From assembly GCF_010092425.1 (NCBI RefSeq), contig NZ_CP048030.1, forward strand, positions 1,561,501-1,625,500: a DNA stretch of 64,000 nucleotides. Direction: 5' to 3'. Made by a program: the position numbers and the translations under genes. Shown here piece after piece: positions 20,197 to 62,773 of the stretch. Under the pieces are notes generated by a model. That model did no database searches and was not told where the DNA came from. It saw nothing but the letters and a program-made list of their open reading frames with translations. The number at the start of each line of letters is the position of its first letter. Position 1 is the first letter of the stretch. This DNA is from Sinimarinibacterium sp. NLF-5-8 (lineage in GTDB: Bacteria; Pseudomonadota; Gammaproteobacteria; Nevskiales; Nevskiaceae).

Positions 20197-21852
20197 TCAG
20201 CCGCCAACGATCTGGGCATCCTCAAGCATCATCGCGGCGCCCTTCTCACCGATCATGGTCGCCGGCTGATTCGTGTTGCCACCGACCAGCGTGGGCATGA
20301 TGGAGGCATCGATCACCCGCAGGCGTTGCAGGCCGTGCACACGCAGACGCGGATCGACCACTGCCATCGGATCGACGCCCATCTTGCAGGTGCCGACGGG
20401 GTGATACGCCGACTCGCCGCTGCGCCGCGCCCATGCCGCGAGGTCGTCGTCATTGTTCAGCGCCGACCCGGGCGAGACCTCAACCTCGTGGTGCGGCGAG
20501 AAGGCCGGCTGCGCCAGGATCTCGCGCACCAGGTGGACTCCACGTACCAGTCGCTCGACGTCGGCGGACTCGGCCATGTAGTTGGGGTCGATCAACGGCG
20601 CCGCGAAGGGATCGGCACTGTGCAGGCCAACGCGCCCGCGCGACGACGGTCTGAGGCCGTAGATCATCACCGCGTAGCCATAACCGCTCATCGCGGTCTT
20701 CAGGTCCCGCCCGTGATCGTCGTACAGCATGGGCGCGAAGTGCAGTTGCAGGTCGGGTATCGGCTCCTCGGGCCGGGAGCGGATGAACCCGCCGGCCTCG
20801 GCGCCGTTGCTCGACAGGAGGCCGCGGCGACCGCTCAGGTATTGCAGCAGGGCCCACAGGCCCTTGAGCCAATAGCTCGGATGCATCGAGATGCTCTGGC
20901 GGCTGCGCGCCCTGACGCGCACGAACACATCGATATGATCCTGGAGATTCCGCCCGACCCCCTCCAGCGTATGGCGCAGTTCGATGCCGTGCCGGACCAG
21001 TTCGTCGCCTGAGCCGATTCCGGATAGCATCAGCAGTTGCGGCGAGTTGAACGCGCCGCCGCAGAGCACAACTTCCCGATCGGCGCGGACCTGTGCCAGC
21101 CCCTTCGCGCACCGGTATTCAACCCCGGTGGCGCGGGTGCCTTCGAGCAGCACACGGGTGACTTGGGCGCGGCTGCGGACCGTCAGGTTGGAACGCCCCG
21201 CGGCGGGTTCGAGATACGCGCGCGCATTGCTGCAACGCGCGCCGTCCTTTTGGTAGGCATAGTAGAAACCCACGCCCTCCTGCTCACTGCCGTTGAAATC
21301 CGTATTGCGCCGGTACCCCGCCTGTGTCGCCGCCTCGACGAATGCCGCGCTCAGCGGATTGGTATAGCGGCGCTCGGCAACATTGAGCGGACCACCCTGG
21401 CCGTGAAACGCTGCCTCGACCGGCGTCAGTTTCGGCTCGAAATGTTCGGACCTGCGGAAGTACGGCAGTACCTCTGCGTACGACCACCCGTCGCAACCCA
21501 GCCGCGCCCACTCGTCGTAGTCCCAAGCATGCCCGCGGATATAGACCTGCGCATTCATGCCGCTGGAACCGCCGAGCATCTTGCCCCGCGGCTGGAACAG
21601 CGCGCGGTCGTACATGTTACGCTGTGGTTCGGTATTGAACTGCCAGTTGTAGCGGCGGCTGAACATCAGTTGCAGGAAGCCCAGCGGCATGTTTACGAAA
21701 GGATTGCGGCGGCTCTCCGGACCGGCTTCGAGCAGCAGTACCGAATAGTGACCGCTCTCGGACAGGCGGTTGGCCACCGCACACCCCGCCGAGCCCGCGC
21801 CGACCACCACATAATCGAAGTGTTCGGACTCCACTCCGCTCGGACGACTCAT
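20197..21852 (-). CDS. alkJ: GMC-family alcohol dehydrogenase, AlkJ-like
   Basis: 551 aa, as in AlkJ. This FAD enzyme oxidises the alcohols made by the alkane hydroxylase to aldehydes. The N-terminal VVGAGSAGCAVANRLSE binds FAD, GGSSGMNAQVYIRGH is the GMC signature, and YHPVGTCKMG contains the active-site region with NTNQPATMIGEKGA at the end. Its ATG overlaps the P450 stop by 4 bases. In CYP153 operons of Alcanivorax the same order P450-alkJ-reductase is known. Confidence 0.9.
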   Translation of the reverse strand: MSRPSGVESEHFDYVVVGAGSAGCAVANRLSESGHYSVLLLEAGPESRRNPFVNMPLGFLQLMFSRRYNWQFNTEPQRNMYDRALFQPRGKMLGGSSGMNAQVYIRGHAWDYDEWARLGCDGWSYAEVLPYFRRSEHFEPKLTPVEAAFHGQGGPLNVAERRYTNPLSAAFVEAATQAGYRRNTDFNGSEQEGVGFYYAYQKDGARCSNARAYLEPAAGRSNLTVRSRAQVTRVLLEGTRATGVEYRCAKGLAQVRADREVVLCGGAFNSPQLLMLSGIGSGDELVRHGIELRHTLEGVGRNLQDHIDVFVRVRARSRQSISMHPSYWLKGLWALLQYLSGRRGLLSSNGAEAGGFIRSRPEEPIPDLQLHFAPMLYDDHGRDLKTAMSGYGYAVMIYGLRPSSRGRVGLHSADPFAAPLIDPNYMAESADVERLVRGVHLVREILAQPAFSPHHEVEVSPGSALNNDDDLAAWARRSGESAYHPVGTCKMGVDPMAVVDPRLRVHGLQRLRVIDASIMPTLVGGNTNQPATMIGEKGAAMMLEDAQIVGG

Positions 21853-23264
21853 TGACTTTTTGCCGTCAGCTTGACCATCAGCCTGGAATAGCCCCGCACG
21901 AAGTTGGACTGCACACGTTCCGGCTCACCAACAACTTCGATGTTATCAAAACGCTTGAGCAGTTCTTCCCAGAGAATGCGCAGTTGCAATTCGGCCAGAC
22001 GGTTGCCCATGCAACGGTGAACGCCGTAACCAAAAGAAATATGGTTACGGGCTTCCTTGCGATCAATAATGAGCTGATCCGCATTTTCGAACTTGCGTTC
22101 GTCCCGATTGCCCGAGGCGTACCACATCACCACGCGATCACCCTGCTTGATGGTCTGACCGTTCAGTTCCACGTCCTGCGTGGCCACCCGGCGCATATAC
22201 GCCAGCGGAGTTTGCCAGCGGATGATTTCCGAGACCATGTTAGGAATCAGCTCCGGGTTCGCCTTGAGCTTGGTGAATTGCTCCGGGTACTGATTCAAAG
22301 CCAGCACACCGCCGCTCATGGAGTTGCGCGTAGTATCATTGCCGCCAACGATCAGCAGCGCCAGATTGCCGATAAACTCCAACGGACGGTTGATCAAATC
22401 CTTTGTGTCTTCGCTGCTCTGTAGAAGGCTGATCAAGTCGAAACCGGGTGCTTCGCCCGCCTTGCGGCGTGCCTCCTTGTCGCGCCAAAGCGTGGAGAAA
22501 GCCCACGCCATGTCAGCGGCGTCGTCAAAGAACACATCTTCATCGGTAAACTCGCCGCCGGTCGCCGATGATGCGCCGGACAATCGATCAGACCAGCCAA
22601 TCAGCTTGTGACGTTCCTCGTAAGGGAAATCCAGCAGCGTGGCCAGCATGCGGCCCGTCAGCTCCTTCGATACCGCCGGCACCCAGTTGAAGGGTTTATC
22701 CAGAGGCAGGCTGTCGAGCACCTCCCCGGTGCGCCTGCGGATCAGCCCTTCCATTTCCTTCAGGTTCTGCGGCGCCACTACCCCCTGGACCGCCCGGCGC
22801 TGCACGTCATGCTTGGGCGGATCCATGGCGATGAACATTTCGACCGATAGCCCTTCCGGGGGGTCTCCCAGGATGATTTGCGGCTCGGAAGAAAACAGCT
22901 CGTGATTCTTGTCCACGAACAGGATGTCTTCATAGCGCGTCACCGACCAGAATGGCCCGAAGGGACTGTTCTTCTGGTAGTGCACCGGCGCCTCATCACG
23001 CAGCCGCTTGAAGTAGGCGCCCCATTGGCCTTGCCGGTACAGAAAAGGATTGCTGGTATCGATGTCCTCAAGCGCCAGAGTATTGACGTCGGGCACAGGG
23101 GCTTCGACAAAGTTGATCTGGGGGCGCTTCGTACCGATGGTCTTCTTCTTTGCCTTCATCAGCAACTTTATGGCCTTGATCTGCAAGTGCATCGGCACCA
23201 CTCTGGATGTGGCGTTGACCAACCTGGCCTGGACTACATCGCTTGTCTGAAATTGTGTTGACAT
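21849..23264 (-). CDS. Cytochrome P450 CYP153-type alkane/terminal hydroxylase
   Basis: 471 aa from the ATG at 23264, which follows GGAGG. CYP153 enzymes hydroxylate medium-chain alkanes and fatty acids at the terminal carbon. Signature stretches shared with CYP153A are FIAMDPPKHDVQRR, LLIVGGNDTTRNSM (I-helix), EIIRWQTPLAYMRR (ExxR region) and the heme loop FGYGVHRCMGNRLAE. An N-terminal extension of about 45 residues precedes the part that aligns with CYP153A6. It lies between its ferredoxin and alkJ, which is the expected operon. Substrate range cannot be read from sequence. Confidence 0.92.
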   Translation of the reverse strand: MSTQFQTSDVVQARLVNATSRVVPMHLQIKAIKLLMKAKKKTIGTKRPQINFVEAPVPDVNTLALEDIDTSNPFLYRQGQWGAYFKRLRDEAPVHYQKNSPFGPFWSVTRYEDILFVDKNHELFSSEPQIILGDPPEGLSVEMFIAMDPPKHDVQRRAVQGVVAPQNLKEMEGLIRRRTGEVLDSLPLDKPFNWVPAVSKELTGRMLATLLDFPYEERHKLIGWSDRLSGASSATGGEFTDEDVFFDDAADMAWAFSTLWRDKEARRKAGEAPGFDLISLLQSSEDTKDLINRPLEFIGNLALLIVGGNDTTRNSMSGGVLALNQYPEQFTKLKANPELIPNMVSEIIRWQTPLAYMRRVATQDVELNGQTIKQGDRVVMWYASGNRDERKFENADQLIIDRKEARNHISFGYGVHRCMGNRLAELQLRILWEELLKRFDNIEVVGEPERVQSNFVRGYSRLMVKLTAKSQ

Positions 23265-36702: not shown

Positions 36703-37892
36703 TCGTCTGTAACACCACGGAGCGTGCGGCGATACAGCACGCCCCACGCCAGCCCCAGCAGCGCTGCGACCAACGATCCGGCCAGCACGCCGAGCTTGGC
36801 CGCCTCCAGCAGAGCAGGATCGTCGAACGCCAGCATGGCGATGAAGATCGACATGGTGAAACCGATGCCGGCCAACACGCCGATCAACACGATGCCGCCC
36901 CATGACACGCCGGGCGGCAATCGGCACACGCCCAGCCGTACCATCAACGCACTCACGCCGATCACGCCCAGCGGCTTGCCCAGCACCAGCGCCAGTACAA
37001 CGCCCAGCGTGACGCCGCGCGCGCCCCCGGCAGACAGATCGATACCGTCCAGACTCACCCCAGCATTGGCCAGCGCAAACAGCGGCAGGATGCCGTAAGC
37101 CACCCAGGGATGCAGCGCCACCGGCACGCGCACCACCGGCGGCGATGGTTGCCGCAATACGCGCACGGGCGTCACCATCCCCAATACCACACCCGCCAGC
37201 GTCGGGTGCGCGCCGCCGATCCAGATCCCCAGCCACAGTATCGCGCCCGGCAATACATACGCCCATGCCGAATCGATCCCAAGGCGTTGCCACAACCCCA
37301 CCCACAGCAGACCGGCACCGGCGATGGCAAACCCATGCAGCGCCAGACCATCGGAGTAAAACAGCGCAATGATGAGCACGGCGATGATGTCGTCGATGAC
37401 CGCCAGCGCCAGCAGAAGCACCCGCACACTGGCGGGAATGCCGCGCCCCAGCAAGGCCAGCACGCCCAATGCAAACGCAATGTCGGTTGCCGCCGGAATC
37501 GCCCAGCCGGAATGGCGCAGCGGATCGTGATTGAGGGCCAGATAGATCAGCGCAGGAACCGCCACGCCGCCCAGCGCGGCCAGAATCGGCAGGCCGGCTG
37601 CACGCAAATGACTCAACGCGCCGTCATGGATTTCACGGCGGATTTCCATGCCCACGATGAGAAAAAACACCGTCATCAGCCCATCGTTGATGATGAAATG
37701 CAGCGAAGGGGTGATGGCACCAATACCCAGCGTCAGATGCCATAGTGCGTGGTAACTGTGCGCTTGGGGTGAGTTGGCCCAGATCAGTGCAGCAACGGCT
37801 GCGATCATCAATATGATGCCGCCGGTGGCCTCAAGATGCAGGAGCCGTTGCAGGCGCTGGATGAGGGCAGATACAGAACATTCGTCGGGCAT
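36699..37892 (-). CDS. nhaA: Na+/H+ antiporter NhaA
   Basis: 397 aa from the ATG at 37892, which gives the normal N-terminus; an upstream extension looks random. About 12 membrane helices are visible. The ion-binding double Asp is present in [16 protein letters not shown], and the GMEIRREI loop is conserved. It exchanges sodium for protons in pH and salt homeostasis at the inner membrane. Confidence 0.93.
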
Positions 37893-51449: not shown

Positions 51450-51529
<80 letters not shown>

Positions 51530-51540
51530 ATCACAGTGAC

Positions 51541-51575
51541 AAACAAAAGCCGCGCTCATGCGCGGCTTTTGTTTG
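51541..51575 (+). terminator. Strong terminator after tRNA-Pro
   Basis: AAACAAAAGCCGCGC and its exact complement form a perfect 15-bp stem with a TCAT loop. The A/T-rich ends let it work in both directions. Confidence 0.88.
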
Positions 51576-51662
51576 TCCGTCACGCAGAATCTTTTGCTTT
51601 CGCAGGGACAACGGCAGTGGCGTTTTCGCGCGCACAGGCGCTTTTTCTGAATGCGCGGCACA

Positions 51663-52412
51663 TCATCCGTTGAGCGCAGCGATGCTGGCAAGGGCGCGCG
51701 CACTGAGCTGGCTGCCGTCTTCGCTGAGTAATGTCAGTGCCACGGATGGACGGCAAAACTGCCGCACAAAGTCGGTTTGAATCCGCGCGATGACCGGGGC
51801 AGCATCTTCAACCATGCCGGCACTGACCCAGTGCATGAGCCGCGCCTGCTGCAAGGCCATCATCAGTTGCGCGAGATCGGTACCGTCGCCGGGCACAAAC
51901 CATTTTTGCGCCTGTCCCCAGGCAAAAATGCCGCGCATTTGCTCCAGCCCCTGTTTCCACAAGCGTTCTTCCTCAGCACTCGGCCATGAAGTGGCGTGAT
52001 ACCACGCAAAACCTTGCTGAAGCTGAATGCGAAGGTAGTCGCGGTGGTCGAGCAAAAACTGCACTTGCACGCCAATGAGCCACAAAATCGGTTCCACACC
52101 CGTGGGTTTAACCAGCACCTGCACACCCCGCTGCGTGACGGTTTCTACCATTTGCTGAGAGCGGCTAATCAAGATCGCGCGGTGCAGTTCGCCCTTGCCC
52201 GCAAACGATTGATAGAGCGTCCCCAGCGAGATGCCCACTTCGCGCGCGATGTCTTGCATCTTGGTGGCGTCTACGCCCTGCTCGGCAAAAATGGCTTCAG
52301 CGGCGGCCAAAATATGTTCTCGGTACAGCGCAGCCTTAGCTTCTCGCAGTGGCGCGCGCGCCGTTTTTTGACGTTTTTGGGATGCCGAAGCGATAGAGGG
52401 AGGTGAACTCAT
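51663..52412 (-). CDS. TetR-family regulator of the sterol gene cluster
   Basis: 249 aa from the ATG at 52412. The N-terminal helix-turn-helix is TKMQDIAREVGISLGTLYQS; the C-terminal ligand-binding part is larger than in TetR itself and mostly helical. It is divergent from the sterol operon, and a perfect 11-bp inverted repeat lies between them, so it probably represses that operon until a hydrophobic ligand binds. Confidence 0.88.
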   Translation of the reverse strand: MSSPPSIASASQKRQKTARAPLREAKAALYREHILAAAEAIFAEQGVDATKMQDIAREVGISLGTLYQSFAGKGELHRAILISRSQQMVETVTQRGVQVLVKPTGVEPILWLIGVQVQFLLDHRDYLRIQLQQGFAWYHATSWPSAEEERLWKQGLEQMRGIFAWGQAQKWFVPGDGTDLAQLMMALQQARLMHWVSAGMVEDAAPVIARIQTDFVRQFCRPSVALTLLSEDGSQLSARALASIAALNG

Positions 52413-52455
52413 GGCAATAGCAACACGGTCAGTGAAGTGGGTGCGCACAACACAG

Positions 52456-52484
52456 TTGACAAATGCCGCGCGCTGATTCATTAA
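52456..52484 (+). promoter_or_regulatory. Candidate promoter of the sterol operon
   Basis: TTGACA at 52456-52461 is followed after 17 bases by a weak -10 (CATTAA). The predicted start would fall at the palindrome at 52492. The 197-base remainder up to the first start codon shows no other gene. Confidence 0.45.
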
Positions 52485-52491
52485 TGTACGA

Positions 52492-52522
52492 AATTACAAT
52501 TATCAATTGAGTAATTGTAATT
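52492..52522. promoter_or_regulatory. Palindromic operator between tetR and the sterol operon
   Basis: AATTACAATTA and TAATTGTAATT are perfect 11-bp arms around a 9-base centre. The strong A/T content stands out in this GC-rich genome. Size and place fit a TetR-type operator. Confidence 0.78.
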
Positions 52523-52680
52523 ATTATATTGTGCGAGAGTCCCGATTCAGGAGTACGCAAAGGCTTGATTATGCCGTGTTTGCCGTTGACCCGACGAACA
52601 GCAGCCCTGGCCGGTGCACTTTCAAACTGGGCGAATCGCTTCCTTTCACCCAAGCCGTTTGCATCAGGAGTCCATGTGTC

Positions 52681-53373
52681 GTGACAACGACGTTTTTCAC
52701 TATCTGGGGCATCATTTTCGCGTTCGATGGCGCCCTCATCGCGTTTTTGACCTGGGCGGCCACGTCAGATCGCTTTGCCAAGTACCGTATTCGCAGTTCG
52801 GCAACTTACGTCATCAAGCCCGCACGCAAGAGAATCAACACGATGCTCAACAACGTGTTGTCGCTGTGCATTTTTGCGTTTTTTGTGGTGTACATGGCCG
52901 AGCGCGCGCTGTATGAAGGCTGGCCCGCGCACTTCACCACACTGCTGGGCGAGGTCTTGGGCGTGCTGATGCTGTATGACGTGATGTATTACTTTTTTCA
53001 TCGCGCCATGCACCACCGCAAGCTGATGAAGTATGTGCACAAAATCCATCATCAGGTGCGATATCCGTTGGCAGATGAAAGCATTTATCTGCACCCGGCC
53101 GAGAACATCGGTGGCCTGGGCTGCCTGCTGCTGGCGATCTGGATTTTGGCGCCGATCAGCGCAATGTCGTTTTTGATCATTTTTTTCATCCACTCTGCGG
53201 CCAATATCATCGTCCACAGCAATCTGGCATTTCCGCATCCGGCGTTTCGCCTGTTCAACTTCTGGACACGCGCGCACGATGTGCACCATTTTGAAGTCAA
53301 GCACAACTACGCCTCGATCTTCCCGTTCTGGGATCAACTGTTTGGCACATCCAAACCTCGGAGCACGCCATGA
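52681..53373 (+). CDS. ERG25/SMO-like sterol C-4 methyl oxidase (fatty acid hydroxylase superfamily)
   Basis: 230 aa from a GTG at 52681 with AGGAG ten bases upstream. The membrane di-iron hydroxylase has about four hydrophobic segments and the His boxes HRAMHH (H107-H112), HKIHH (H120-H124), H138 and HDVHH (H199-H203), followed by NYASIFPFWDQLFGT as in eukaryotic C-4 methyl oxidases. Other members of the superfamily are C-5 desaturases and alkylglycerol monooxygenases, so the substrate is inferred from the neighbours. It is first in the operon and overlaps the next start by 4 bases. Confidence 0.82.
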   Translation: MTTTFFTIWGIIFAFDGALIAFLTWAATSDRFAKYRIRSSATYVIKPARKRINTMLNNVLSLCIFAFFVVYMAERALYEGWPAHFTTLLGEVLGVLMLYDVMYYFFHRAMHHRKLMKYVHKIHHQVRYPLADESIYLHPAENIGGLGCLLLAIWILAPISAMSFLIIFFIHSAANIIVHSNLAFPHPAFRLFNFWTRAHDVHHFEVKHNYASIFPFWDQLFGTSKPRSTP

Positions 53374-54377
53374 GCCGCACTGTTTTGATTACCGGTGGAC
53401 AAGGCTTTGTCGGGCGCGCACTGGTGGATCGCTTTGCCGATCTGGGCTTTAGCGTGATCTGCGCCGACCTCAACGCCACCGCGCACCGCAAGGATGTGCG
53501 CTATCTGAAGCTGGACATTCGTGATGCCGACGCGGTACTGGCGGCCTGTGAGGGCGTGGACAGCCTTATCCACAACGCCTCACTGGTGCACACCAAGCAC
53601 AACCGCGTGGAAGATGTGTGGGCGGTGAACCTGGGCGGCACCGAGAATCTGCTGGCCGCCTGTCGCGCGCACAACATCCCGCGCATGGTGTACATCAGCT
53701 CCGCCAGTGCGGTGTACGAAGGCCGCGATATTGAAAACGGCGATGAAACCCTGCCCTATTCCACCCTCTCTCAAGCCCCGTATGCCGATAGCAAAATCCA
53801 GGCTGAGCAAAAAGTGCTGGCGTTCAGCGGCACGGCGCAAACGCAGTGCTGCGCGATTCGCCCGCATGTGATTTTTGGCGCGGGTGACAAGCGCTTTGTT
53901 CAGGCGATTCTGGATAAAGCCGCCAAGGGTCAGCTCAAGCGCGCGGTGGGCAACCGCGACAAACTCTCTGACTTTACCTATATCGACAATCTGGTGGATG
54001 CCGTCGTCGCCGCCGAAAACAAACTCACGCCCGGCGCAGCCGTGTGCGGCCAAGCCTACTTTGTCACCAACGGCGAACCGATGGCGTTTTTTGATTTTGT
54101 TGAAGATTTCATCGTTGCGATGGGCTATCCGCCAATCAAAGGCAAGGTGCCGTATTGGCTGGCCTATGGGGTTGCCGCCATCGCCGAGGGCATCGACACC
54201 CTCAAAGGCGGCACCCTGAACGCCGAAAACGGCCTGACCCGATTCTCGGTGCGCTACATGGTCACCCATCACTACTTCAACATCAGCAAAGCCCGGCGCG
54301 ATCTGGACTGGGCGCCGCAAGTCACACTGGCCGAAGGCATCAAACGCACCGTCGCTGATCTGGCGCGCGCGGCATAG
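53370..54377 (+). CDS. ERG26/NSDHL-like 3beta-hydroxysteroid dehydrogenase/C-4 decarboxylase
   Basis: 335 aa. A short-chain-type NAD(P) enzyme: VLITGGQGFVGRALVD binds the cofactor and YADSK (Y138, K142) is catalytic. The middle (RPHVIFGAGDKRFVQAILDK) and the later DFTYIDNLVDAV and FFDFVEDFIVAMGY stretches align well by eye with eukaryotic sterol-4-carboxylate 3-dehydrogenase. It would remove the carboxyl group made by the upstream methyl oxidase. The ATGA overlap makes the two translationally coupled. Confidence 0.85.
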   Translation: MSRTVLITGGQGFVGRALVDRFADLGFSVICADLNATAHRKDVRYLKLDIRDADAVLAACEGVDSLIHNASLVHTKHNRVEDVWAVNLGGTENLLAACRAHNIPRMVYISSASAVYEGRDIENGDETLPYSTLSQAPYADSKIQAEQKVLAFSGTAQTQCCAIRPHVIFGAGDKRFVQAILDKAAKGQLKRAVGNRDKLSDFTYIDNLVDAVVAAENKLTPGAAVCGQAYFVTNGEPMAFFDFVEDFIVAMGYPPIKGKVPYWLAYGVAAIAEGIDTLKGGTLNAENGLTRFSVRYMVTHHYFNISKARRDLDWAPQVTLAEGIKRTVADLARAA

Positions 54378-54395
54378 CCCACCGGAAAGCCTGCC

Positions 54396-56342
54396 ATGAA
54401 CCTCACTCGCTTAACTTCTTTTAACTGCACCGCGAGGAACATGAGCACAGCGCCCTTTGTACTACTCATCGGGGCTTGTGGCGGGTTTTTTTTGCCCGCG
54501 CAAGCCGCCGAACTGGAACTGGGCGAGGTGACCGCCAAATACACCCTCACTGCCAGCTACGCTGCGGCCTGGCGTATTGAATCTCCTGATGCGCGCATCA
54601 TCGACGCCCCCGGTGATCCGCGTATTCCCGTTTCAGACAAGCTCAAATATCCACAGTCCAATAACTTTGACGATGGCGATCGCAATTTTGACCGCTGGGA
54701 TATGGTCAACAATCGCATCTCCTTGCTAGGCGATGTGGAGCTGAGCTGGCAAAACTACGGCGTGCTGCTGCGCGGCGATACGTTTTATGACTTTGCCTAT
54801 CACGGCAAAAACGCCAATACCGCACCTGATCGCCTCAACACCGATCAGCAACCGCCGAATACATTCACCCGTGATGCCCAGCATTACAGCGGCCAGCGCA
54901 GCCGCTTGCTGGATGCTTACGCCTATGCGTATTGGCGCTTTGATAACGATATGGCGCTGTCGATCAAAGCCGGTCGCCATATCGCCGCCTGGGGACAAAG
55001 CCTGTTTTTCTCAGGCGTGGCTTTGGCGCAATCCACCGCCGACGCCACGCGCTCCACCATCCCTGGGGTGGACGTTAAAAGCATTTTGCTGCCCACCGAT
55101 CAAATCTCGATGCGTTTTACCGTGCTCGAAGGCTTGACCTTGCTCGGCCAGTATCAGTTTGAGTTCAAGCCGTTTGAGATTGATCCGGTGGGGACGTTTT
55201 ACTCGGTCACTGATGTGGTCGGGCCTGGCCGCCAGTTTGCCTATGGGTTTTTAAATCCGCTGTTTCTGGACACCCTCGGCAACTTTAATTTGACTGATTT
55301 GAATGATGTTGCCGGGATTGTTGAAACCATTGATTCGGTCGTCGATGGCCGTCTCAACACTGGCGCGCTGACGTCATTTTTAAGCAGCCTCGGCGCGCTG
55401 CCAGTGCCGGTTTCACTGCCGGGACTGGGCATCAACCCCCTGCGCGCGCCGGAAGGCATCAACCCCATGTATGGCGGCGAAGATCGGCCGCGCAGCGCGC
55501 AGTACGGCGCGGGTTTGCTGTATACGCTGACCGATACCACCGAGGTCGGTGCGTATTACCTGCGGTATCACCAAAAAACGCCGGCGCCGACGATGCGGTT
55601 TGGCAAGCTGGTGATCATCCCCGGCCAGGCGCTTGCACCCGGCCTGAGCATTCCCGATCTCACCACACAAGAGCTGGGTCTGAGCGTGCCTGAGGTTTAT
55701 ATCGTCAAATACTTTGACAACGTAGACCTGTACGCCCTGAGCATTTCAACCATGCTGTGGGGCGTGAACGTCGGCGGTGAATTGATTCGCAGGCAAGGCG
55801 TGGATGTGCTGCTTGATCTTGACGAAGGCATTAACGGCATCATTCCCACGCCCACGCGCGCGAACACCACGCAAGCGTTGGTCAACGGCATTTTTACCTT
55901 TCGCCCCCCGTGGTTTTTCGACGCCATCGCCATGGTCGGTGAGCTGGGTTACATCCGCGCCGACGGCATCACACCGCAGCCCAGCCACGAGGGCATTAAT
56001 GCCGGGCAAACCTCGGCCAATCTCACCGCCGATCGTGAAGCTTGGGCATTCGCGGCGCTGGCCTTTTTTGATCGCGCCAATGTGCTGGATGGCTGGGATA
56101 TGCGCATCCCGCTGTCATTTCAAATGGCGCTCAAAGGGCGCTCTCCGCTGGCCGGTGCGTTTGGTTCGTTATTCGATCAAGGTGATATTCGCGTTGGCGC
56201 TGGCATTGAGCTGACGTATTTGCAGCGCTTTACCGTGGGACTCAATTACAGCGGCTTTACCGGGCGCGCGCCTCACTTTTTTGACCGTCCCTTACAAGAC
56301 CGCGACACCATTGGAATCAATCTGAAATACAACATTTTTTAG
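54396..56342 (+). CDS. DUF1302 family outer-membrane protein
   Basis: 648 aa with a signal peptide (hydrophobic about residues 22-38, cleavage near AQAAE). The remainder is rich in alternating beta strands and aromatic residues and ends in a Phe (LKYNIF), as in outer-membrane barrels. DUF1302 proteins are nearly always paired with DUF1329 proteins, often near genes for hydrophobic-compound use. A role in moving sterols across the outer membrane is an inference from this place in the operon. Confidence 0.82.
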   Translation: MNLTRLTSFNCTARNMSTAPFVLLIGACGGFFLPAQAAELELGEVTAKYTLTASYAAAWRIESPDARIIDAPGDPRIPVSDKLKYPQSNNFDDGDRNFDRWDMVNNRISLLGDVELSWQNYGVLLRGDTFYDFAYHGKNANTAPDRLNTDQQPPNTFTRDAQHYSGQRSRLLDAYAYAYWRFDNDMALSIKAGRHIAAWGQSLFFSGVALAQSTADATRSTIPGVDVKSILLPTDQISMRFTVLEGLTLLGQYQFEFKPFEIDPVGTFYSVTDVVGPGRQFAYGFLNPLFLDTLGNFNLTDLNDVAGIVETIDSVVDGRLNTGALTSFLSSLGALPVPVSLPGLGINPLRAPEGINPMYGGEDRPRSAQYGAGLLYTLTDTTEVGAYYLRYHQKTPAPTMRFGKLVIIPGQALAPGLSIPDLTTQELGLSVPEVYIVKYFDNVDLYALSISTMLWGVNVGGELIRRQGVDVLLDLDEGINGIIPTPTRANTTQALVNGIFTFRPPWFFDAIAMVGELGYIRADGITPQPSHEGINAGQTSANLTADREAWAFAALAFFDRANVLDGWDMRIPLSFQMALKGRSPLAGAFGSLFDQGDIRVGAGIELTYLQRFTVGLNYSGFTGRAPHFFDRPLQDRDTIGINLKYNIF

Positions 56343-56380
56343 CGCTTTATTAAACGGATAGAGCATCAGGAGGAGAGCCG

Positions 56381-57754
56381 ATGACCCCGTTCAAAATCAA
56401 CCCCGCAGCCCTGGCCTTAACCCTGGGTAGCTGCTTATGCACTGCGCCCGCTTGGGCGGTCAGTGCCGAACAAATTGCCCAGCTCGATGGCGACCGTTAC
56501 TCCTGCATGGGCGCCGAGCGCGCGGGCAGCGACTCTGGCGTGGCTCCATACAGCGGCAAGTGGTTCAAAACCTGGCCGGGGCAAAGCAAGGCACACGGCT
56601 ACGAACCCGGCCCTTATGCCGACGAAGCGCCGCTATTCACCATCACCGCCCAAAACATGGCGCAATACAGCGCGCACTTGAGCGAGGGACAACAAGCCCT
56701 GTTTGCGAGGCATCCCGATCATTACAAGATGCATGTTTATCCCAGCCATCGGGATTTCAAACCTGCCGACTGGGTGTGCGATGCGGTCAAAAGAAATGCG
56801 CAAAGTGCCAAGCTCAGTGCCGATGGTCTGGGCTTGGAAGGCACCACCGGCGCGCACCCGTTCCCCTTTCCCACCAACGGGCTGGAGGCGATCTGGAACG
56901 TGATCATGCCCAGTCGCGCGTGGACTGAGGCCGCCGTTTTTGATGTGGCCGATGTGTTTGCCAATGGCCGTATTGCCTGGGGCAAATGGGATTACAAGGT
57001 TTTGAGCGTAGGTAACGATCCGAACGAACGCCATTCATTCAGCGATCCGATCAACGGTTACTTTTTGATCAAAATCCTCGCGCCATCGCGGCAAAAAGGC
57101 GAGATCAACGTCGGCTATCAGCTCAACAACTTCAGCAGCGGCACCTCCACCCAAGCCTGGCAATACAACCCCGGCATCCGCCGCACCCGCAAAGCGCCCG
57201 AAATCGGCTTTGACTACCCGGTGCCGCCTTCAGGCATGCGCACCTCGGACGACGATTACATTTTTAACGGCTCGCCCGATCGCTATAGCTGGAAGCTGGT
57301 CGGCAAAAAAGAGCTGTACATCCCCTATAACAACTTCAAGATCAACGATCCTGCACTCAAATACAAAGACCTGCTCACCCCCGGCACGATTAACCCGGAG
57401 CATGTGCGCTACGAGCTGCACCGCGTTTGGGTGATCGAGGGTCACTTAAAAGAAGGGCTGCGCCACGTTTATAAAAAGCGCGTGATCTATGCCGATGAAG
57501 ACACTTGGCTGGCCTTTATGGGCGACAACTACGACAACCGCGACAACCTGTGGCGGGTGAACTGGATTCACTACTTTTACTCTCAAGAATCCGGCACTTA
57601 CCACCGAGGCGCCTCGGTTTATAACGATTTGATTGCCGACAGCTACGAGGCCACGCACCTGGTCAACGAAGCCGGTAATGGCTGGTGGCGCTTAAACCAG
57701 CCGATGAAGAAAAACGACTTCACCCCCGAAGCCGCCACTCAGCAGGGGCAGTGA
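56381..57754 (+). CDS. DUF1329 family periplasmic protein
   Basis: 457 aa with AGGAGGAG before the ATG and a signal peptide ending near TAPAWA. The mature protein is beta-rich, with typical motifs YQLNNFSSGTSTQAWQYNPG, RRTRKAPEIGFDYP and VWVIEGHLKEGLRHVYKKRV. DUF1329 proteins resemble LolA/LolB-like lipid carriers in fold predictions. It is separated from DUF1302 by 38 bases and from the P450 gene by one. Confidence 0.85.
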   Translation: MTPFKINPAALALTLGSCLCTAPAWAVSAEQIAQLDGDRYSCMGAERAGSDSGVAPYSGKWFKTWPGQSKAHGYEPGPYADEAPLFTITAQNMAQYSAHLSEGQQALFARHPDHYKMHVYPSHRDFKPADWVCDAVKRNAQSAKLSADGLGLEGTTGAHPFPFPTNGLEAIWNVIMPSRAWTEAAVFDVADVFANGRIAWGKWDYKVLSVGNDPNERHSFSDPINGYFLIKILAPSRQKGEINVGYQLNNFSSGTSTQAWQYNPGIRRTRKAPEIGFDYPVPPSGMRTSDDDYIFNGSPDRYSWKLVGKKELYIPYNNFKINDPALKYKDLLTPGTINPEHVRYELHRVWVIEGHLKEGLRHVYKKRVIYADEDTWLAFMGDNYDNRDNLWRVNWIHYFYSQESGTYHRGASVYNDLIADSYEATHLVNEAGNGWWRLNQPMKKNDFTPEAATQQGQ

Positions 57755-57755
57755 C

Positions 57756-59471
57756 ATGAGCACCCTGGTCAACCCATCCACTGCGGCGATTCCTCACCAG
57801 CGCAGCCCGATTCCTTGGGTGGGGCATATGTTTGGATTTGCCCGCAATCCGTATCAGTTTGTGGCGCGCGTAGCCGCCGAAAAAGGTGAGATTGCCGCCT
57901 TTACTCTACTCGGCCAGCGCATTGTGCTGCTCACCGGCGATGAGGCCAGTGAAGTGTTTTATCGCGCCAGCGATGAGGTGCTTGATCAAGCCGCCGCTTA
58001 CAAACTGATGACGCCGATCTTTGGCGAAGGGCTGGTGTTTGATGCGCCGCTGGCGCGCAAAAATCAGCAACTCAAAATGCTGATGCCATCGCTACGCGCC
58101 GACGCCATGCGTCATCACGCGCACAAAATCGTCGGTGAAGTCGATGAGCTGATGCGCCAATGGGGCGATAGCGGGCAAATGGATTTGGTGGCGCAAATGA
58201 AGCAGCTCACCATCAACACCGCCAGCCATTGCCTGCTGGGGCGTGAGTTTCGCTACGAGCTTTCGGCGGAGTTTGCGCAGATTTATCACGACCTGGAACA
58301 AGGCGTAAATCCGCTGGCATACCACTTTCCCAATCTGCCGATTCCGGCCTTTAAGCGCCGCGACCGCGCGCGCGCGCGCCTGCAACAACTGGTGGGCGGC
58401 ATTGTTCAAAAGCGCGCGCAGCAACCCGTTAAACCCAACGATTTGTTTCAATCGCTGATCGACGGCGCTTATGACGACGGCACCAAACTCAGCGATAACG
58501 AAATCACCGGAATGCTGATTGCCACCATTTTTGCCGGCCACCACACCAGCTCCGGCACCGCCGCTTGGGTATTGCTGGAGCTGCTCAAACATCCCGCCGT
58601 AATGCGCGAAGTGCTGACCGAGCTGGATACGGTGCTGGGCGATCAAGACGATTTGAGCTTTCAAAATGTGCGCGATTTGGTGGTGCTCGATCGGGTGCTC
58701 AAAGAAGTGCTGCGCCTGCATCCACCGCTGATTATTTTGATGCGCCAGGTCAAACAAGACATTGCCTTCAAGCAATACACCATCGCCGCCGGTGACATGG
58801 TGTGGGCCTGCCCGCCGATTACCCACCGCCTGCCGCATTTATTTGCCAACCCCGAAGCCTTTGACCCCAGCCGCTTTGGGCCTGACCGCCATGAGGATAA
58901 AAACCTGATGGCTTACCAGCCGTTTGGTGGCGGCCACCACAAGTGCTCTGGCAATGCTTTTGCACAGTTCCAGATCAAGGCCATTTTTGCCGTGCTGCTG
59001 CGTCGCTACACCTTTGAACTGGCCGATCCGCCAGAACACTATGTGGACGACTACACGCAAATGATTGTGCAGCCGCGCGCGCCCTGCCGCGTGCGCTACC
59101 AAATCCGCAGCACGCGCGCAGCACCGCCGTCTGCACCGCCGTCTGCACAGCCGTCTGCACAGCCGTCTGCACAGTCCGCCCCGACTGCCGCCGACTCAGC
59201 CACGGCCAGCGCCGCCGGTGCTTGTCCATTTCATAGCTCTGCGCCCAGCGGCGCGCGCGTACCAACCTTTCGGGTGGTGGTGGATCGCCAGCTCTGCCAA
59301 GGCCATGCGATGTGCATGAACGAAGCGCCGGAGGTGTTCAACGTTGATGCCAATGGACAGTTGCACATCCTCAAACCAGAGCTCACCGAACAAGCCCGTG
59401 AACAAGTCACGCGCGCGGTGCGTTATTGCCCCAACAGTGCGCTCAAGATTGTGGAGGGGCCGACACCATGA
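57756..59471 (+). CDS. CYP51 sterol 14alpha-demethylase fused to a [3Fe-4S] ferredoxin
   Basis: 571 aa. Residues 1-450 are a CYP51-type P450: AYKLMTPIFGEGLVFDAP (B'-C region), IATIFAGHHTSSGTAAW (I-helix, GHHTSS 261-266), ExxR at 317-320 and heme loop FGGGHHKCSGNAFAQ with C397. A linker of about 50 residues contains four PSA(P/Q) repeats. Residues about 503-571 are a small ferredoxin: C514-x5-C520 and C558-P, three cysteines suiting a [3Fe-4S] cluster. The same fusion is known from Methylococcus capsulatus CYP51. It removes the C-14 methyl of sterols. Confidence 0.9.
   Translation: MSTLVNPSTAAIPHQRSPIPWVGHMFGFARNPYQFVARVAAEKGEIAAFTLLGQRIVLLTGDEASEVFYRASDEVLDQAAAYKLMTPIFGEGLVFDAPLARKNQQLKMLMPSLRADAMRHHAHKIVGEVDELMRQWGDSGQMDLVAQMKQLTINTASHCLLGREFRYELSAEFAQIYHDLEQGVNPLAYHFPNLPIPAFKRRDRARARLQQLVGGIVQKRAQQPVKPNDLFQSLIDGAYDDGTKLSDNEITGMLIATIFAGHHTSSGTAAWVLLELLKHPAVMREVLTELDTVLGDQDDLSFQNVRDLVVLDRVLKEVLRLHPPLIILMRQVKQDIAFKQYTIAAGDMVWACPPITHRLPHLFANPEAFDPSRFGPDRHEDKNLMAYQPFGGGHHKCSGNAFAQFQIKAIFAVLLRRYTFELADPPEHYVDDYTQMIVQPRAPCRVRYQIRSTRAAPPSAPPSAQPSAQPSAQSAPTAADSATASAAGACPFHSSAPSGARVPTFRVVVDRQLCQGHAMCMNEAPEVFNVDANGQLHILKPELTEQAREQVTRAVRYCPNSALKIVEGPTP
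59127..59174 (+). repeat. Four 12-bp tandem repeats in the P450-ferredoxin linker
   Basis: CCGTCTGCACAG repeated four times (first copy with CCG end). It encodes PSAP and PSAQ units of the linker. Such in-frame repeats can change linker length by slippage. Confidence 0.9.
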
Positions 59472-60268
59472 GCCGACTGTCATCGCTGTATTCCAGCAAC
59501 CCTGATAAAGCGTGGGTTGAGCGTTTTTTTATGCTCTACACGCCCGTGTGGATGCTGTCGATGGCCTTGATGATGCTCACCGGCTCCGACAAAAACTGGT
59601 CCGACGGCGCGCTGTTGCTGCACGCTGCCGCCACCGCACTGCCGGTGTTGCTGGTGCCGATGTGGCTGGCACGCCGCCAGCGCACTTCGCCGTGGTATGA
59701 CAGCTATTGGCTTAAAGCCAATCTGTACCTTGCCGTGTTTGGCTTTTTTGGTAACTACTTTGGCTCCGAGTATTTTTTTGATGTGCTCGGCATGGTCTAC
59801 CACTACCCCAACGCCACCACCACTTTGGATGCCACCTTGCTCGGCAGCGGCACACAAACGGTGCCGGTGATCATGTATTTCTACACGCATGTGTATTTCA
59901 TGACGTATCACGCCAGCGCCAACATCGCCCTGCGCCAAATCAAGCGCCGCCAGTGGCCGGGCATGGTGCTGATTTTCCCAATCGCCGTGTTTGTGGTGGG
60001 CTATGTTTGGGCGTGGCTGGAAACCAAAGCCATGGCCAATCCCCTCATGGCCACCAGCTTCTACTATCAAAAAATGGAGCTGATGCTGCGCTACGGATCG
60101 GCCATTTACGCCACCTACTTTTTAGCCAGCTTTCCGATTTATTACTTTTTGGATGAGGACCGCGCACGCCGCTGGTCACTCTGGCAAACCGTGGCAGGCG
60201 CTTTGAGCGCCAGCATGCTGACGTTTTATTTACTCGACTTTGCCGCGCGCATGGTCGGCGCGCTGTAA
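59468..60268 (+). CDS. Cycloeucalenol cycloisomerase homologue
   Basis: 266 aa from the ATG at 59468, overlapping the P450 stop by 4 bases. Six to seven membrane helices. The sequence follows the plant enzyme closely by eye: SSNPDKAWVERFFMLYTPVW, WYDSYWLKANLYLAVFGFFG, NYFGSEYFFDVLGMVYHYP, YHASANIALRQIKRRQWPG and AIYATYFLASFPIYYF. The plant enzyme opens the 9beta,19-cyclopropane ring of cycloeucalenol to give obtusifoliol. It supports a cycloartenol-type substrate for this cluster. Confidence 0.85.
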   Translation: MSRLSSLYSSNPDKAWVERFFMLYTPVWMLSMALMMLTGSDKNWSDGALLLHAAATALPVLLVPMWLARRQRTSPWYDSYWLKANLYLAVFGFFGNYFGSEYFFDVLGMVYHYPNATTTLDATLLGSGTQTVPVIMYFYTHVYFMTYHASANIALRQIKRRQWPGMVLIFPIAVFVVGYVWAWLETKAMANPLMATSFYYQKMELMLRYGSAIYATYFLASFPIYYFLDEDRARRWSLWQTVAGALSASMLTFYLLDFAARMVGAL

Positions 60269-60304
60269 GCACACATCTTCACGACCTTAAAGAGGAGAAA
60301 CTCC

Positions 60305-61069
60305 ATGAACACTGCCACGCTCACATCACGGCCAGCACCAATTCCCTGGCTACCGTTTATCCGCAGTGAAGTGTCTTTGCTGATCAGCTGCTTTGCCTTT
60401 GTGGTGATTGCCGTTGGGCAAATTGGCGCCATTGGCGTGCATTTTTTTGGCTTTGATCGCGTCACCATGGCCTATGCCAATTTTTGGGCGTTTGATTTCA
60501 CCCTCATTGGCATGCTGATTGTGCCGTGGCTGCCGCTACCCAGCCTACACAATCACACGCGCGCGCAGCGATTGGATTTGATGGTGCAAGTCTGGGTTTG
60601 CACCTACGTCGCCATCGTCTTCACCTGGGAGATTCCGTGGCTGCTGCTGTACAAACACATCGCCGTGGCGCACGACCAGTTCTGGGCATATCAATTCTGG
60701 GCTTACATCGACGGCGGCGATATTCGCTACAAAGACCCCGATGCCCAAGTGCTATTTGCCGAATTCTGGACGTGCTTAAACGGTGTGGGCGCGCTGTTTG
60801 CCATCCGCGCCTGGTTTAAAAGCAACAAAACCAGCGCCGCTGCGGTGTTTTATTTAATGCTGGCGGCGGTGGGGCACATCACCACCTCGGCTCAGTATTT
60901 TTTAACCGAAACGCTGACGGGTTTTCCGAATGTGGATGTGACCGTGGCCAGTAACTTTTGGGCTAAGTTTGTGTTCTCCAACTGCTCGTGGATGATCATG
61001 CCGTTCATTGTCATTGTCTGGGGCATGGGCACCATTAAGCGGATTTACAGCCAAAATCCTGCTCGCTGA
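60305..61069 (+). CDS. Emopamil-binding-protein-like sterol isomerase (EXPERA type)
   Basis: 254 aa, with AGAGGAG before the ATG. About six membrane helices. The pattern VFTWEIPW (E109), AYIDGGDIRYKDPD and AEFWTCLNGVGALFAI (E153) resembles the EBP delta8-delta7 sterol isomerase active region, where two acidic residues are catalytic. Identity to known EBP is low by eye, so the isomerase reaction is inferred mainly from motif placement and from the surrounding sterol genes. It is the last gene before the terminator at 61090. Confidence 0.65.
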   Translation: MNTATLTSRPAPIPWLPFIRSEVSLLISCFAFVVIAVGQIGAIGVHFFGFDRVTMAYANFWAFDFTLIGMLIVPWLPLPSLHNHTRAQRLDLMVQVWVCTYVAIVFTWEIPWLLLYKHIAVAHDQFWAYQFWAYIDGGDIRYKDPDAQVLFAEFWTCLNGVGALFAIRAWFKSNKTSAAAVFYLMLAAVGHITTSAQYFLTETLTGFPNVDVTVASNFWAKFVFSNCSWMIMPFIVIVWGMGTIKRIYSQNPAR

Positions 61070-61089
61070 TTCAATCGCAACGTTGCATC

Positions 61090-61126
61090 AAAAAAGCCGC
61101 TGATCATTCAAGATCAGCGGCTTTTT
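61090..61126. terminator. Bidirectional terminator between the sterol operon and nirK
   Basis: GCCGCTGATC and GATCAGCGGC form a perfect 10-bp stem with an ATTCAA loop, flanked by AAAAAA and TTTTT. It can end both convergent transcripts. Confidence 0.93.
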
Positions 61127-61149
61127 AAATGCCTCGCAATCGCGCGCGC

Positions 61150-62622
61150 TTAGTGCCCGCCGCCGCTGCTGTGTACCGTACCTTCGGGCTGGGCATCGGC
61201 CCAGTGGAAGTACTGCATGTACTGGTCAATTTCAGCATCGCTGAGGTTTTGGTTGGGCATCGGAATGTTGTTGTATTTCTTCAACAACTCCTGCGCCACC
61301 GGATCGGTTTCCAGCATTTTTTCGGGTGCCTTGAGCCAAGCCCGCAGCCAAGCATCGTCCCGCAGCTTGGTGACACCCAGCAGATCGGGGCCGAGTTTGT
61401 CACCGCCGCCAATGGAGTGGCAGGCCAAACACTTGCTTTCAAAGTCGAGCTTGCCTTTGACCGCATCCGGATCGGTGGGGGTGCCGGTGGCGGGAATGTT
61501 GTGGTGCTCCACATCGCCCGCGCCTTCAGGCTGGAGACGCGCATCGATGATGCCCACTGCGCCTTGTGAGGCGTTGGCAAAGTGGTGATCGACCATCACA
61601 TATTGGCCTTCCTGCGGAATCACAAACTCTACGATCGCACCGTTGGAAGAACCCAGCAGCACGGTCTGCATGCCGCGCATTTCATTGTGCGGATTGCCGT
61701 CCATCCACACCCGATCAAAGATCGTGCCGACGACGTGAAAGCTGGAGGTTTTGCTGGGGCCGACGTTGAGCACAAACAAGCGCACACGCTCGCCCGGTTT
61801 GGCCGGCAGCGGGTTTTTCACCAGGCCGTTATGAAAGCCGTTGAAAACCGTGTAGGTCGGCGTGGCTTTCTTGAGGTTGTCACCATCCAGCACATAGACC
61901 GGCTGGCCATCAACTTTGCTGCCTTCAGGATCGGGTTTGGCGTAGAACTCGCTTTGCACCACCACATATTCGCGATCAACTTGCGTGGGATAGCCCTCTT
62001 TGGGCTCCACCACCAGCGCGCCATACATGCCGGCGGCAATGTGCTCCAGCACCATCGGCGTGCCGCAGTGGAACATGAATACGCCGGGATAGTTGGCGGT
62101 GAACTCGAACTCGATGGTCTGACCGGGCGCGATGGAACGATATTTATCGTCCGGGGCAACCATGGCGGCGTGAAAGTCCATGGAGTGCATCATCGGCGCG
62201 GCAACGAAGCCGACGCCGGGCATGACTTCATCGCTGCGGTTGGTCATCACAAATTTGATCCGATCACCGACGCGCGCGCGGATGGTGGGCGCGGGCACCT
62301 GATCACCAAAAGTCCAGCCGCTGAACTTCACGCCGGGGGCGATTTCAATGACTTTATGGGTGGTGTCCAGCCGCACGGTTTTGACTGGCGACGGATCCAG
62401 CGGCTTGATGTAGGCATCCATGCTCAGCGCTGCGCCTTCGGCAAACGCACCGCTGTGGCGTTCACTGCTGACCTTGGCCGGCGGCGAGGTCAAATCCATG
62501 GTGCGAATATCGTAAGGGTCAGCGGTTGACTGCGCCGTTGCCATACTGCCCTGCTGGCATGCTGCCAGCATCAGCGCACCTGCGCCCGTGACGACCCCCA
62601 GTGCCCAATGTCCAAATTGCAT
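61150..62622 (-). CDS. nirK: Copper nitrite reductase fused to cytochrome c, lipoprotein
   Basis: 490 aa from the ATG at 62622 with GGGAG upstream. The signal ends in a lipobox LMLAAC (C22), predicting a lipid-anchored periplasmic protein. Two cupredoxin domains follow: MMHSMDFHAA (H146, H151), FHCGTPMVLEH (H185, C186, H194) and M199 supply copper ligands, and VDHHFANASQG is in the second domain. The C-terminal about 100 residues are a class I cytochrome c with CLACH and a late Met. It reduces nitrite to nitric oxide. No nitric-oxide reductase gene is in the window. Confidence 0.88.
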   Translation of the reverse strand: MQFGHWALGVVTGAGALMLAACQQGSMATAQSTADPYDIRTMDLTSPPAKVSSERHSGAFAEGAALSMDAYIKPLDPSPVKTVRLDTTHKVIEIAPGVKFSGWTFGDQVPAPTIRARVGDRIKFVMTNRSDEVMPGVGFVAAPMMHSMDFHAAMVAPDDKYRSIAPGQTIEFEFTANYPGVFMFHCGTPMVLEHIAAGMYGALVVEPKEGYPTQVDREYVVVQSEFYAKPDPEGSKVDGQPVYVLDGDNLKKATPTYTVFNGFHNGLVKNPLPAKPGERVRLFVLNVGPSKTSSFHVVGTIFDRVWMDGNPHNEMRGMQTVLLGSSNGAIVEFVIPQEGQYVMVDHHFANASQGAVGIIDARLQPEGAGDVEHHNIPATGTPTDPDAVKGKLDFESKCLACHSIGGGDKLGPDLLGVTKLRDDAWLRAWLKAPEKMLETDPVAQELLKKYNNIPMPNQNLSDAEIDQYMQYFHWADAQPEGTVHSSGGGH

Positions 62623-62773
62623 CTGTTGACTCCCGAAAATCAGAAAATGACGCCCCAAGTGTAGGCGAGCCGTGATCCGGTTTGAATGGCTGCCTCGCTT
62701 GCAGCGGTACAGGCAAACCGTTTTTGCGCGCGCCATTTATACTCATCCGTCATTGTGTGATTTGCCTGCCGCC

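Follow-up and report, generated by a model that had tools for sequence, protein, structure and literature searches.

In the gammaproteobacterium Sinimarinibacterium sp. NLF-5-8 (order Nevskiales), a stretch of 64,000 nucleotides on contig NZ_CP048030.1 (positions 1,561,501 to 1,625,500; this whole stretch is referred to below as the window) contains an operon of seven genes that run head to tail on the + strand from 52681 to 61069, with overlaps or short gaps between them. We consider it probable, with odds of roughly two in three, that this operon encodes a catabolic funnel, i.e. a set of enzymes that would strip the 4-methyl groups, the 14-methyl group and the 9,19-cyclopropane from imported plant- or fungus-type sterols for the purpose of steroid degradation. 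The degradation of imported sterols provides the better explanation because the genome has genes for KshA, KstD, HsaA and thiolase/ChsH2-like proteins, and because KshA_C genes are present in all six genomes of the order that carry CYP51. A preliminary description, made from the letters alone, had presented the region as a sterol-tailoring operon with a plant-like enzyme set and a substrate that might be taken up from outside; the five enzyme genes it named do form one tight + strand run at the coordinates it gave, and the external substrate agrees with the lack of a cyclase match in the whole genome. The enzymes are indeed of sterol type, although the set is incomplete (ERG4/ERG24 has no match in the genome) and the framing in terms of synthesis or tailoring gives way to degradation, while the genes for a DUF1302 protein, a DUF1329 protein and a divergent TetR-family regulator had been overlooked.

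The lipids cycloartenol and 24-methylenecycloartanol occur widely in plants and algae, and they have three structural features that would be expected to stand in the way of known steroid degradation. The aromatisation of ring A requires a free C-4, which a 4,4-dimethyl group prevents, and KshA hydroxylates C-9, a position that is occupied by a 9,19-bridge or by a delta-8 bond; in cycloartenol C-4 is doubly methylated and C-9 is bridged to C-19. From the family-level identities of the genes, the conserved synteny, the missing cyclase match and the steroid-degradation genes we propose the following transport, substrate, reactions and order of steps. The DUF1302 and DUF1329 proteins would import the lipid, after which the ERG25-like and ERG26-like proteins would take off methyl carbon at C-4. 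The product would be a 3-ketone, which for an ERG26-type enzyme would be the right entry to KstD. The cyclopropyl isomerase (CPI) homologue would open the 9,19-cyclopropane, the CYP51-ferredoxin would take off the 14-methyl, and the shift of the ring-B double bond from C-9 would fall to the EBP-like protein, much as to the relatives' 8,14-sterol reductase. KstD, KshA and HsaA, whose genes lie at other places in the genome, could then open the rings. Whether this amounts to an undescribed route, in which cyclopropane opening and ERG25/ERG26 C-4 demethylation solely feed the 9,10-seco pathway and in which, in the window's lineage, an EBP-like protein whose proton donor has changed took over from the 8,14-reductase and clears C-9 otherwise, is a more tentative matter, and on balance we lean slightly against it.

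The genome, a single contig of 3,200,809 bases with a completeness of 98.09%, has a cluster at 1,945.7-1,950.1 kb that encodes a KstD-like protein (7p18, 3-oxosteroid 1-dehydrogenase, 6e-189; PRK07843 at 593.6 bits, under the cut-off of 788), KshA (PF19298, E 3e-58; solved KshA, 5e-51) and, in between, a HsaA-like protein (2rfq, 3-HSA hydroxylase, 1e-88). Of the 9,10-seco set of KstD, KshA, HsaA, HsaC and HsaD, the analysis covered the first three and found them. At about 1,973-1,976 kb lie a thiolase, a ChsH2-like OB/zinc-ribbon protein and a hydrolase; the thiolase, presumably Ltp2-like, exceeds the cut-off of the NCBIfam model 'lipid-transfer protein' PRK07855 (534 versus 469). A second KshA_C Rieske protein (locus L048) is found with a ferredoxin-like gene and with DUF1329, SDR and ALDH genes. 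The preliminary remark that the window holds no cyclase extends to the whole genome, in which neither SQHop_cyclase_C nor TIGR03463 has a match (squalene epoxidase was outside this search).

The same association holds at the level of the order, for which 85 genomes were compared. CPI homologues occur in 17 of them and CYP51 (E 1e-60 or better) in six, namely the same six, the window's genome included, whose CPI is at least 65% identical. None of these six has SQHop_cyclase_C, a domain found in 32 of the 85 genomes, and KshA_C is present in 17/17 CPI genomes versus 32/68 others (Fisher p 2e-5, without a correction for kinship). In one of the relatives (G003) homologues of the thiolase, ChsH2 and hydrolase genes (80, 61 and 51% identity) adjoin the operon, and a KshA_C protein of a weaker type is encoded some 12.5 kb from CPI. 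These data bear directly on a scenario of scavenging and remodelling, according to which the cell would turn imported sterols of the 4-methyl or cyclopropyl type into membrane-compatible ones and keep these as a substitute for hopanoids. The enzyme set is like a sterol-maturation pathway, and there is no match to a hopanoid or sterol cyclase, so any membrane triterpenoid would have to come from outside; however, the genome encodes KstD, HsaA, KshA and thiolase/ChsH2-like proteins, and the thiolase/ChsH2-type genes even adjoin the module in G003, such that we deem this scenario unlikely.

Within the operon, the gene at 57756-59471 (+) encodes a fusion of a putative CYP51 sterol 14-demethylase and a ferredoxin, with a p450 domain (E 1e-72) and a C-terminal Fer4 domain (Fer4_15, residues 507-565). 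The protein matches CYP51 structures over its full length and well above other P450s, which points to a genuine sterol 14-demethylase: it scores 618 bits to 6mcw (1e-184), 404 to 1x8v and 315 to 3jus, all CYP51, and the first match without a CYP51 name (9wat, 247 bits) appears at rank 19, with some fungal and protist CYP51 structures ranking below it. The PDB table gives 6mcw only as Cytochrome P450 51; we take its source to be Methylococcus capsulatus.

The first two genes of the operon are predicted to remove the C-4 methyl carbon. The gene at 52681-53373 (+) encodes a membrane protein of the FA_hydroxylase family (PF04116, E 1e-23) with the His boxes HRAMH, HKIHH and HDVHH, which is predicted to be an ERG25/SMO-like C-4 methyl oxidase. 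The ERG25 identity derives mainly from context, the subfamily evidence being the PF04116 superfamily and the three His boxes, and a comparison with yeast sequences that were not taken from a database gives a weak preference for ERG25 (62.8 bits) over ERG3 (43.9 bits). Genes of 53-61% identity occupy the same place in three relatives (L018, L019 and L022). The start of the next gene (53370-54377, +) overlaps the hydroxylase stop. It encodes an ERG26/NSDHL-like 3beta-hydroxysteroid dehydrogenase/decarboxylase (PF01073, E 1e-53), of which the top PDB match is sterol-4-alpha-carboxylate 3-dehydrogenase (NSDHL, 6jkg, 9e-35; next 1e-15) and in which the YxxxK motif is present as YADSK; the nearest relative of known function and the motif together argue for an enzyme of the NSDHL/ERG26 type. 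Homologues with 71-78% identity stand beside the module in four of five relatives. The preliminary claim that a eukaryote-like ERG25/ERG26 pair takes the place of the bacterial SdmA/SdmB pair is upheld, as the dehydrogenase reaches only 58.5 bits with the NCBIfam model of SdmB and the two KshA_C-type Rieske proteins of the genome, which this search covered, 51-57 bits with that of SdmA, against cut-offs of 600.

One may ask whether the substrate of the pair and the membrane proteins is some other lipid (e.g. an alkyl ketone or another triterpenoid), with CYP51 alone touching sterols. FA_hydroxylase is a broad superfamily, the preference in the yeast comparison is slight, and the highest-scoring NCBIfam model of the dehydrogenase is OleD (250.7 bits, under the cut-off of 580), a close kinship that calls for caution. 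Nevertheless, NSDHL leads the PDB matches by 19 orders of magnitude, and the pair accompanies CYP51 and CPI in nine of 16 closely related alpha- and gammaproteobacterial loci (see below), which renders a non-sterol substrate improbable.

The CPI homologue (59468-60268, +) starts at ATG 59468, overlapping the CYP51 stop. It shows 34% identity over 267 columns to an Arabidopsis CPI1 sequence that was not taken from a database, and it has no match in Pfam (E 0.1), among the NCBIfam models or in the PDB (E 1). Seven long helices are predicted (AlphaFold pLDDT 88.7), the predicted structure has no informative structural match, and an alignment of 12 sequences contains 59 invariant columns. The name cycloeucalenol (cyclopropyl sterol) cycloisomerase should therefore be taken as a lead, which is backed by the conserved context.

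The last gene (60305-61069, +) encodes an EBP-like (EXPERA) membrane protein that was found in only one of the 85 genomes, i.e. the window's. Human EBP (6oht, E 1e-8) is its sole solved match at E 0.001, and its Pfam EBP score of 21.7 lies under the curated cut-off of 25.7. In human EBP the variants His76Ala and Glu80Ala lose activity, whereas Glu122Ala and Trp196Ala keep little (PMC6549186). Equivalents of Glu122, Asn193 and Trp196 are present (Glu153, Asn226 and Trp229), and Glu80 is probably kept as Glu109 in a MAFFT alignment bridged by a Planktothrix sequence, in which Val105 takes the position of His76; the HMMER pairing differs (Thr107 for Glu80, Ala103 for His76). Because a His76 equivalent is absent and His76Ala abolishes the activity of human EBP, we do not claim a delta8-delta7 sterol isomerase: of the isomerase that the preliminary description had assigned, a family resemblance remains. 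A scan of genomes with this protein, which relied on short peptide patterns and is sensitive to close relatives only, yielded no relative. Separately, a Spongiibacteraceae metagenome-assembled genome carries a fragment (L129, 20598-20759, -) that is 44% identical to the end of the EBP-like protein, is cut by the locus end and has a distant CPI homologue some 10 kb away.

The five relatives within the order (L018-L022) share a gene order in which a second SDR, an NTF2-size gene and CPI come after CYP51, and in L018 and L022 ERG25 and ERG26 have GMC and ALDH genes in front of them. In L018 the second SDR reaches 153.5 bits with HpnA and 106.9 bits with SdmB, both under cut-off. For the NTF2-size protein there was no match in Pfam, NCBIfam or the PDB (the latter at E 0.1). 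A bacterial 8,14-sterol reductase (8,14-Bsr) has, however, been reported in 2026 from M. capsulatus with six pocket residues, Y37, Y43, Y78, Y80, D133 and D136 (PMC13277303), and the NTF2-size protein has Y, Y, Y, Y, D and D at the same spacing (offset +27), invariant in all five relatives, in a comparison made by the reported residue positions and not by direct alignment with the M. capsulatus sequence. These residues suggest that the NTF2-size protein is a bacterial 8,14-sterol reductase. Strong matches to it occur in five of the six CYP51 genomes and weak ones (E 1e-10 to 2e-6) in 20 further genomes; the match in G003 includes one stop, which lies ahead of the start chosen for the residue comparison. 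According to the same source the CYP51 product is a delta-8,14 diene, and 8,14-Bsr has been shown in methanotrophs, with homologues, often co-located with CYP51, in gamma- and alphaproteobacteria, Mycobacteriales and myxobacteria. An ERG4/ERG24 protein over cut-off was found in one of the 85 genomes, which is one of the six with CYP51 (G001; L153, 7823-9028, -; 3e-103), on a contig other than the operon's.

Beyond the order, named genomes were scanned by means of the CPI alignment, which returned 73 loci, several of the fetched stretches being short contigs. Among the 39 loci with a CPI of at least 45% identity, the stretch includes CYP51 (at least 40%) in 32, the reductase (45%) in 24, GMC (45%) plus ALDH (50%) in 16, ERG25 (50%) plus ERG26 (60%) in nine and EBP in none; for the close group of 16 alpha- and gammaproteobacterial loci the numbers are 15 for CYP51, 14 for the reductase and nine for ERG25 plus ERG26, and two loci (L087 and L088) have neither reductase nor EBP in their stretches. 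In the alphaproteobacterium Zavarzinia marina (L079) CYP51, SDR, reductase, CPI, ERG26, ERG25, ALDH and GMC lie together in about 10 kb, and a strain genome of Stenotrophobium rhamnosiphilum has the module as well. CPI with CYP51 is spread over alpha- and gammaproteobacteria and Myxococcota, and the ERG25/ERG26-like pair was found beside them in alpha- and gammaproteobacteria. A CYP51 tree, made by a quick method, comprised 35 rows: the window, one relative from the order and 33 of the 37 loci with a CYP51 of at least 40% (those with a single piece of more than 400 residues and no stop). It places the window inside a set of eight rows (support 98) with Zavarzinia, Stagnimonas and Stenotrophobium; the branch of the window is long (0.35) and its exact sister is unsure.

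Cyclases and KshA_C were surveyed in 38 genomes, namely those of 37 of the 73 loci and the window's (five of them also belong to the order's set). TIGR03463 was exceeded (cut-off 851) in none of the 38 and had no match at all in the 16 close-group genomes, and its matches in eight genomes comprise four of 673-704 bits, one partial of 446, one of 270 and two marginal ones of 21-23. KshA_C was present in 37 of the 38 (the miss being the genome of L115), versus one of 14 controls, where its score stayed below cut-off. The alpha- and gammaproteobacterial module is thus accompanied by KshA_C genes and is without a TIGR03463-type cyclase. A plant-like de novo synthesis, with genes for squalene epoxidase and cyclase at other loci, would fit the five enzyme types as post-cycloartenol kinds of step and the oxidosqualene cyclase (OSC)-like proteins seen in five module genomes, yet it is close to refuted, and was rejected for the window's genome, on the absence of SQHop_cyclase_C and TIGR03463 from a genome that is 98% complete and of SQHop_cyclase_C from the order's CYP51 genomes (squalene epoxidase, squalene synthase and sterol methyltransferase being outside the search), the more so as an apparent synthesis cluster on a Planktothrix plasmid has squalene synthase and a squalene-oxidase-repeat protein annotated next to its CYP51 and EBP homologues.

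Several observations weigh against a catabolic funnel. KshA_C is common throughout the order (49/85), its association with CYP51 alone is weak (6/6 versus 43/79, p 0.03), one genome (G067) has KshA_C of the weaker type only (1e-29), and the domain covers several Rieske proteins, up to ten per genome in Myxococcota, such that its presence is no proof of steroid degradation. The operon is physically unlinked to KstD, HsaA and KshA in the window's genome. The second SDR and the 8,14-reductase of the relatives, and the GMC and ALDH genes that some of them have, are all without a counterpart in the window's operon, and one relative (L021 in G001) has no ERG25/ERG26 homologue inside its 20 kb stretch. 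The search for a cyclase and a C-14 reductase that had been suggested for the complete genome matched neither: besides the two cyclase models, ERG4/ERG24 and, at E 1e-3, 8,14-Bsr are without a homologue, which leaves the delta-14 reduction unexplained, and neither alignment of the EBP-like protein offers a His at the His76 position. Finally, OSC-like cyclases (446-704 bits) occur in five of the 38 module genomes, four titled Myxococcales or Polyangia and one titled 'uncultured bacterium' with a CYP51 that groups with Myxococcales; synthesis is possible there, and the module could serve it in some Myxococcota.

For a more distant subfamily of CPI-like genes (30-39% identity), KshA-like Rieske genes were found in the stretches of 14 out of 34 loci, in most cases with no CYP51; this subfamily, which includes L120, L122, L123, L124, L132, L134, L136 and L139, possibly has a separate steroid-degradation role. 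Records with the titles Spongiibacteraceae, Halieaceae and Haliea also contain CPI homologues, and isolates of Spongiibacteraceae and Halieaceae have been reported to degrade steroids (PMC5790920). The CPI homologues in records titled Klebsiella pneumoniae and Bathyarchaeota (L118, L149) probably stem from mislabelled or contaminated metagenome bins.

The combination of CYP51 with an 8,14-sterol reductase in sterol degraders is among the closest systems in print. Mycobacteria have been suggested to modify imported lanosterol (Lee, Giner and Welander 2026; PMC13277303), and that system is alike in having CYP51 with a ferredoxin, a sterol-degrading host and a proposed activity towards imported methylsterols. 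The window's genome is without 8,14-Bsr and adds the ERG25/ERG26-like pair, the CPI homologue, the EBP-like protein and DUF1302/DUF1329; the word 'cycloeucalenol' is absent from the main text of that paper, figures aside. With SdmA/SdmB(/SdmC) the operon would share the outcome, i.e. bacterial C-4 methyl removal (here predicted), but it would work with a hydroxylase of the di-iron type and an NSDHL-like dehydrogenase instead of a Rieske oxygenase and SdmB; Enhygromyxa salina is described as having no homologues of the eukaryotic C-4 demethylation proteins (PMC10202945). The plant cycloartenol pathway as outlined in PMC8172173 (SMO, 3betaHSD/D, CPI, CYP51 and 8,7-isomerase) has the same kinds of enzymes, cyclopropyl isomerase included, whereas the window's genome is without a cyclase or ERG4/ERG24-type reductase match and the direction is probably catabolic. 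KstD, KshA and HsaA are shared with known 9,10-seco steroid degradation, upstream of which the operon would be a funnel for methylated sterols; 'CYP51' and 'lanosterol' are absent from the main text of two genomic surveys of that pathway (PMC5790920, PMC4810484). The cluster on plasmid p2 of Planktothrix agardhii (L176, 1442-20828), annotated as squalene synthase, squalene-oxidase-repeat protein, CYP51 homologue, three Rieske proteins and an EBP-family protein, has in common with the operon a CYP51 homologue (39%) and an EBP-family gene on one stretch, but looks biosynthetic by annotation, and its EBP-family protein keeps the His. A literature search, with most subscription papers outside its reach, found no paper title on a bacterial ERG25/ERG26-CPI module.

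The module offers a testable answer to the question how bacteria could handle all three blocking features and, if the prediction is true, provides for bacterial C-4 demethylation outside the SdmAB type. It also touches the debate on the origin of the eukaryotic enzymes, as their presence in a bacterium need not mean sterol synthesis, and the combination of an absent 8,14-Bsr with a present EBP-like gene represents a natural experiment on the handling of the delta-8,14 diene.

Between the pair and CYP51 lie the genes for the DUF1302 protein (54396-56342, +; PF06980, E 8e-124), which may form an outer-membrane lipid channel, and the DUF1329 protein (56381-57754, +; PF07044, E 2e-113; LolA_like 2.8e-5, under its cut-off), a predicted periplasmic lipid carrier. 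In locus L020 an MMPL/sterol-sensing gene and a LolA-like gene follow DUF1302, and a literature search that combined DUF1302, DUF1329, steroid and degradation gave no paper. The TetR-family regulator (51663-52481, -; PF00440, E 1e-13) is divergent from the operon, and L018 and L022 have homologues of it (44-46% identity) next to the corresponding cluster. A tRNA-Pro (51451-51527) lies immediately upstream. Promoters were not found above chance in a scan (three versus 5.1 expected), and there are 19 terminator-like sites versus 12.6 expected. The GC content of 51528-62740 is 0.568 versus 0.607 for the whole window. CYP51 was found in none of the ten other genomes of the genus; the operon was likely gained horizontally, as we infer. 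Among plasmid records there was no match to CPI, one weak match to EBP, CYP51 in seven records (at most 44%) and ERG26 in one (36%).

ARAGORN reports a second tRNA-Pro(GGG) at 36719-36791 (-), which is little like the one at 51451 in sequence and is possibly false. Directly past the operon (61150-62736, -) lies a gene for a copper nitrite reductase-like protein that ends in a cytochrome c domain (TIGR02376, 188.8 bits, under cut-off). Another P450 of the window (21849-23159) was considered as a sterol side-chain P450 and rejected, as it is of the CYP153 type (6e-275 to the alkane hydroxylase 8b2p), whereas CYP125 reaches no more than 4e-73; it adjoins a choline-dehydrogenase-like GMC oxidoreductase (20197-23159 for both, -), and these are probably genes for alkane or alcohol oxidation.

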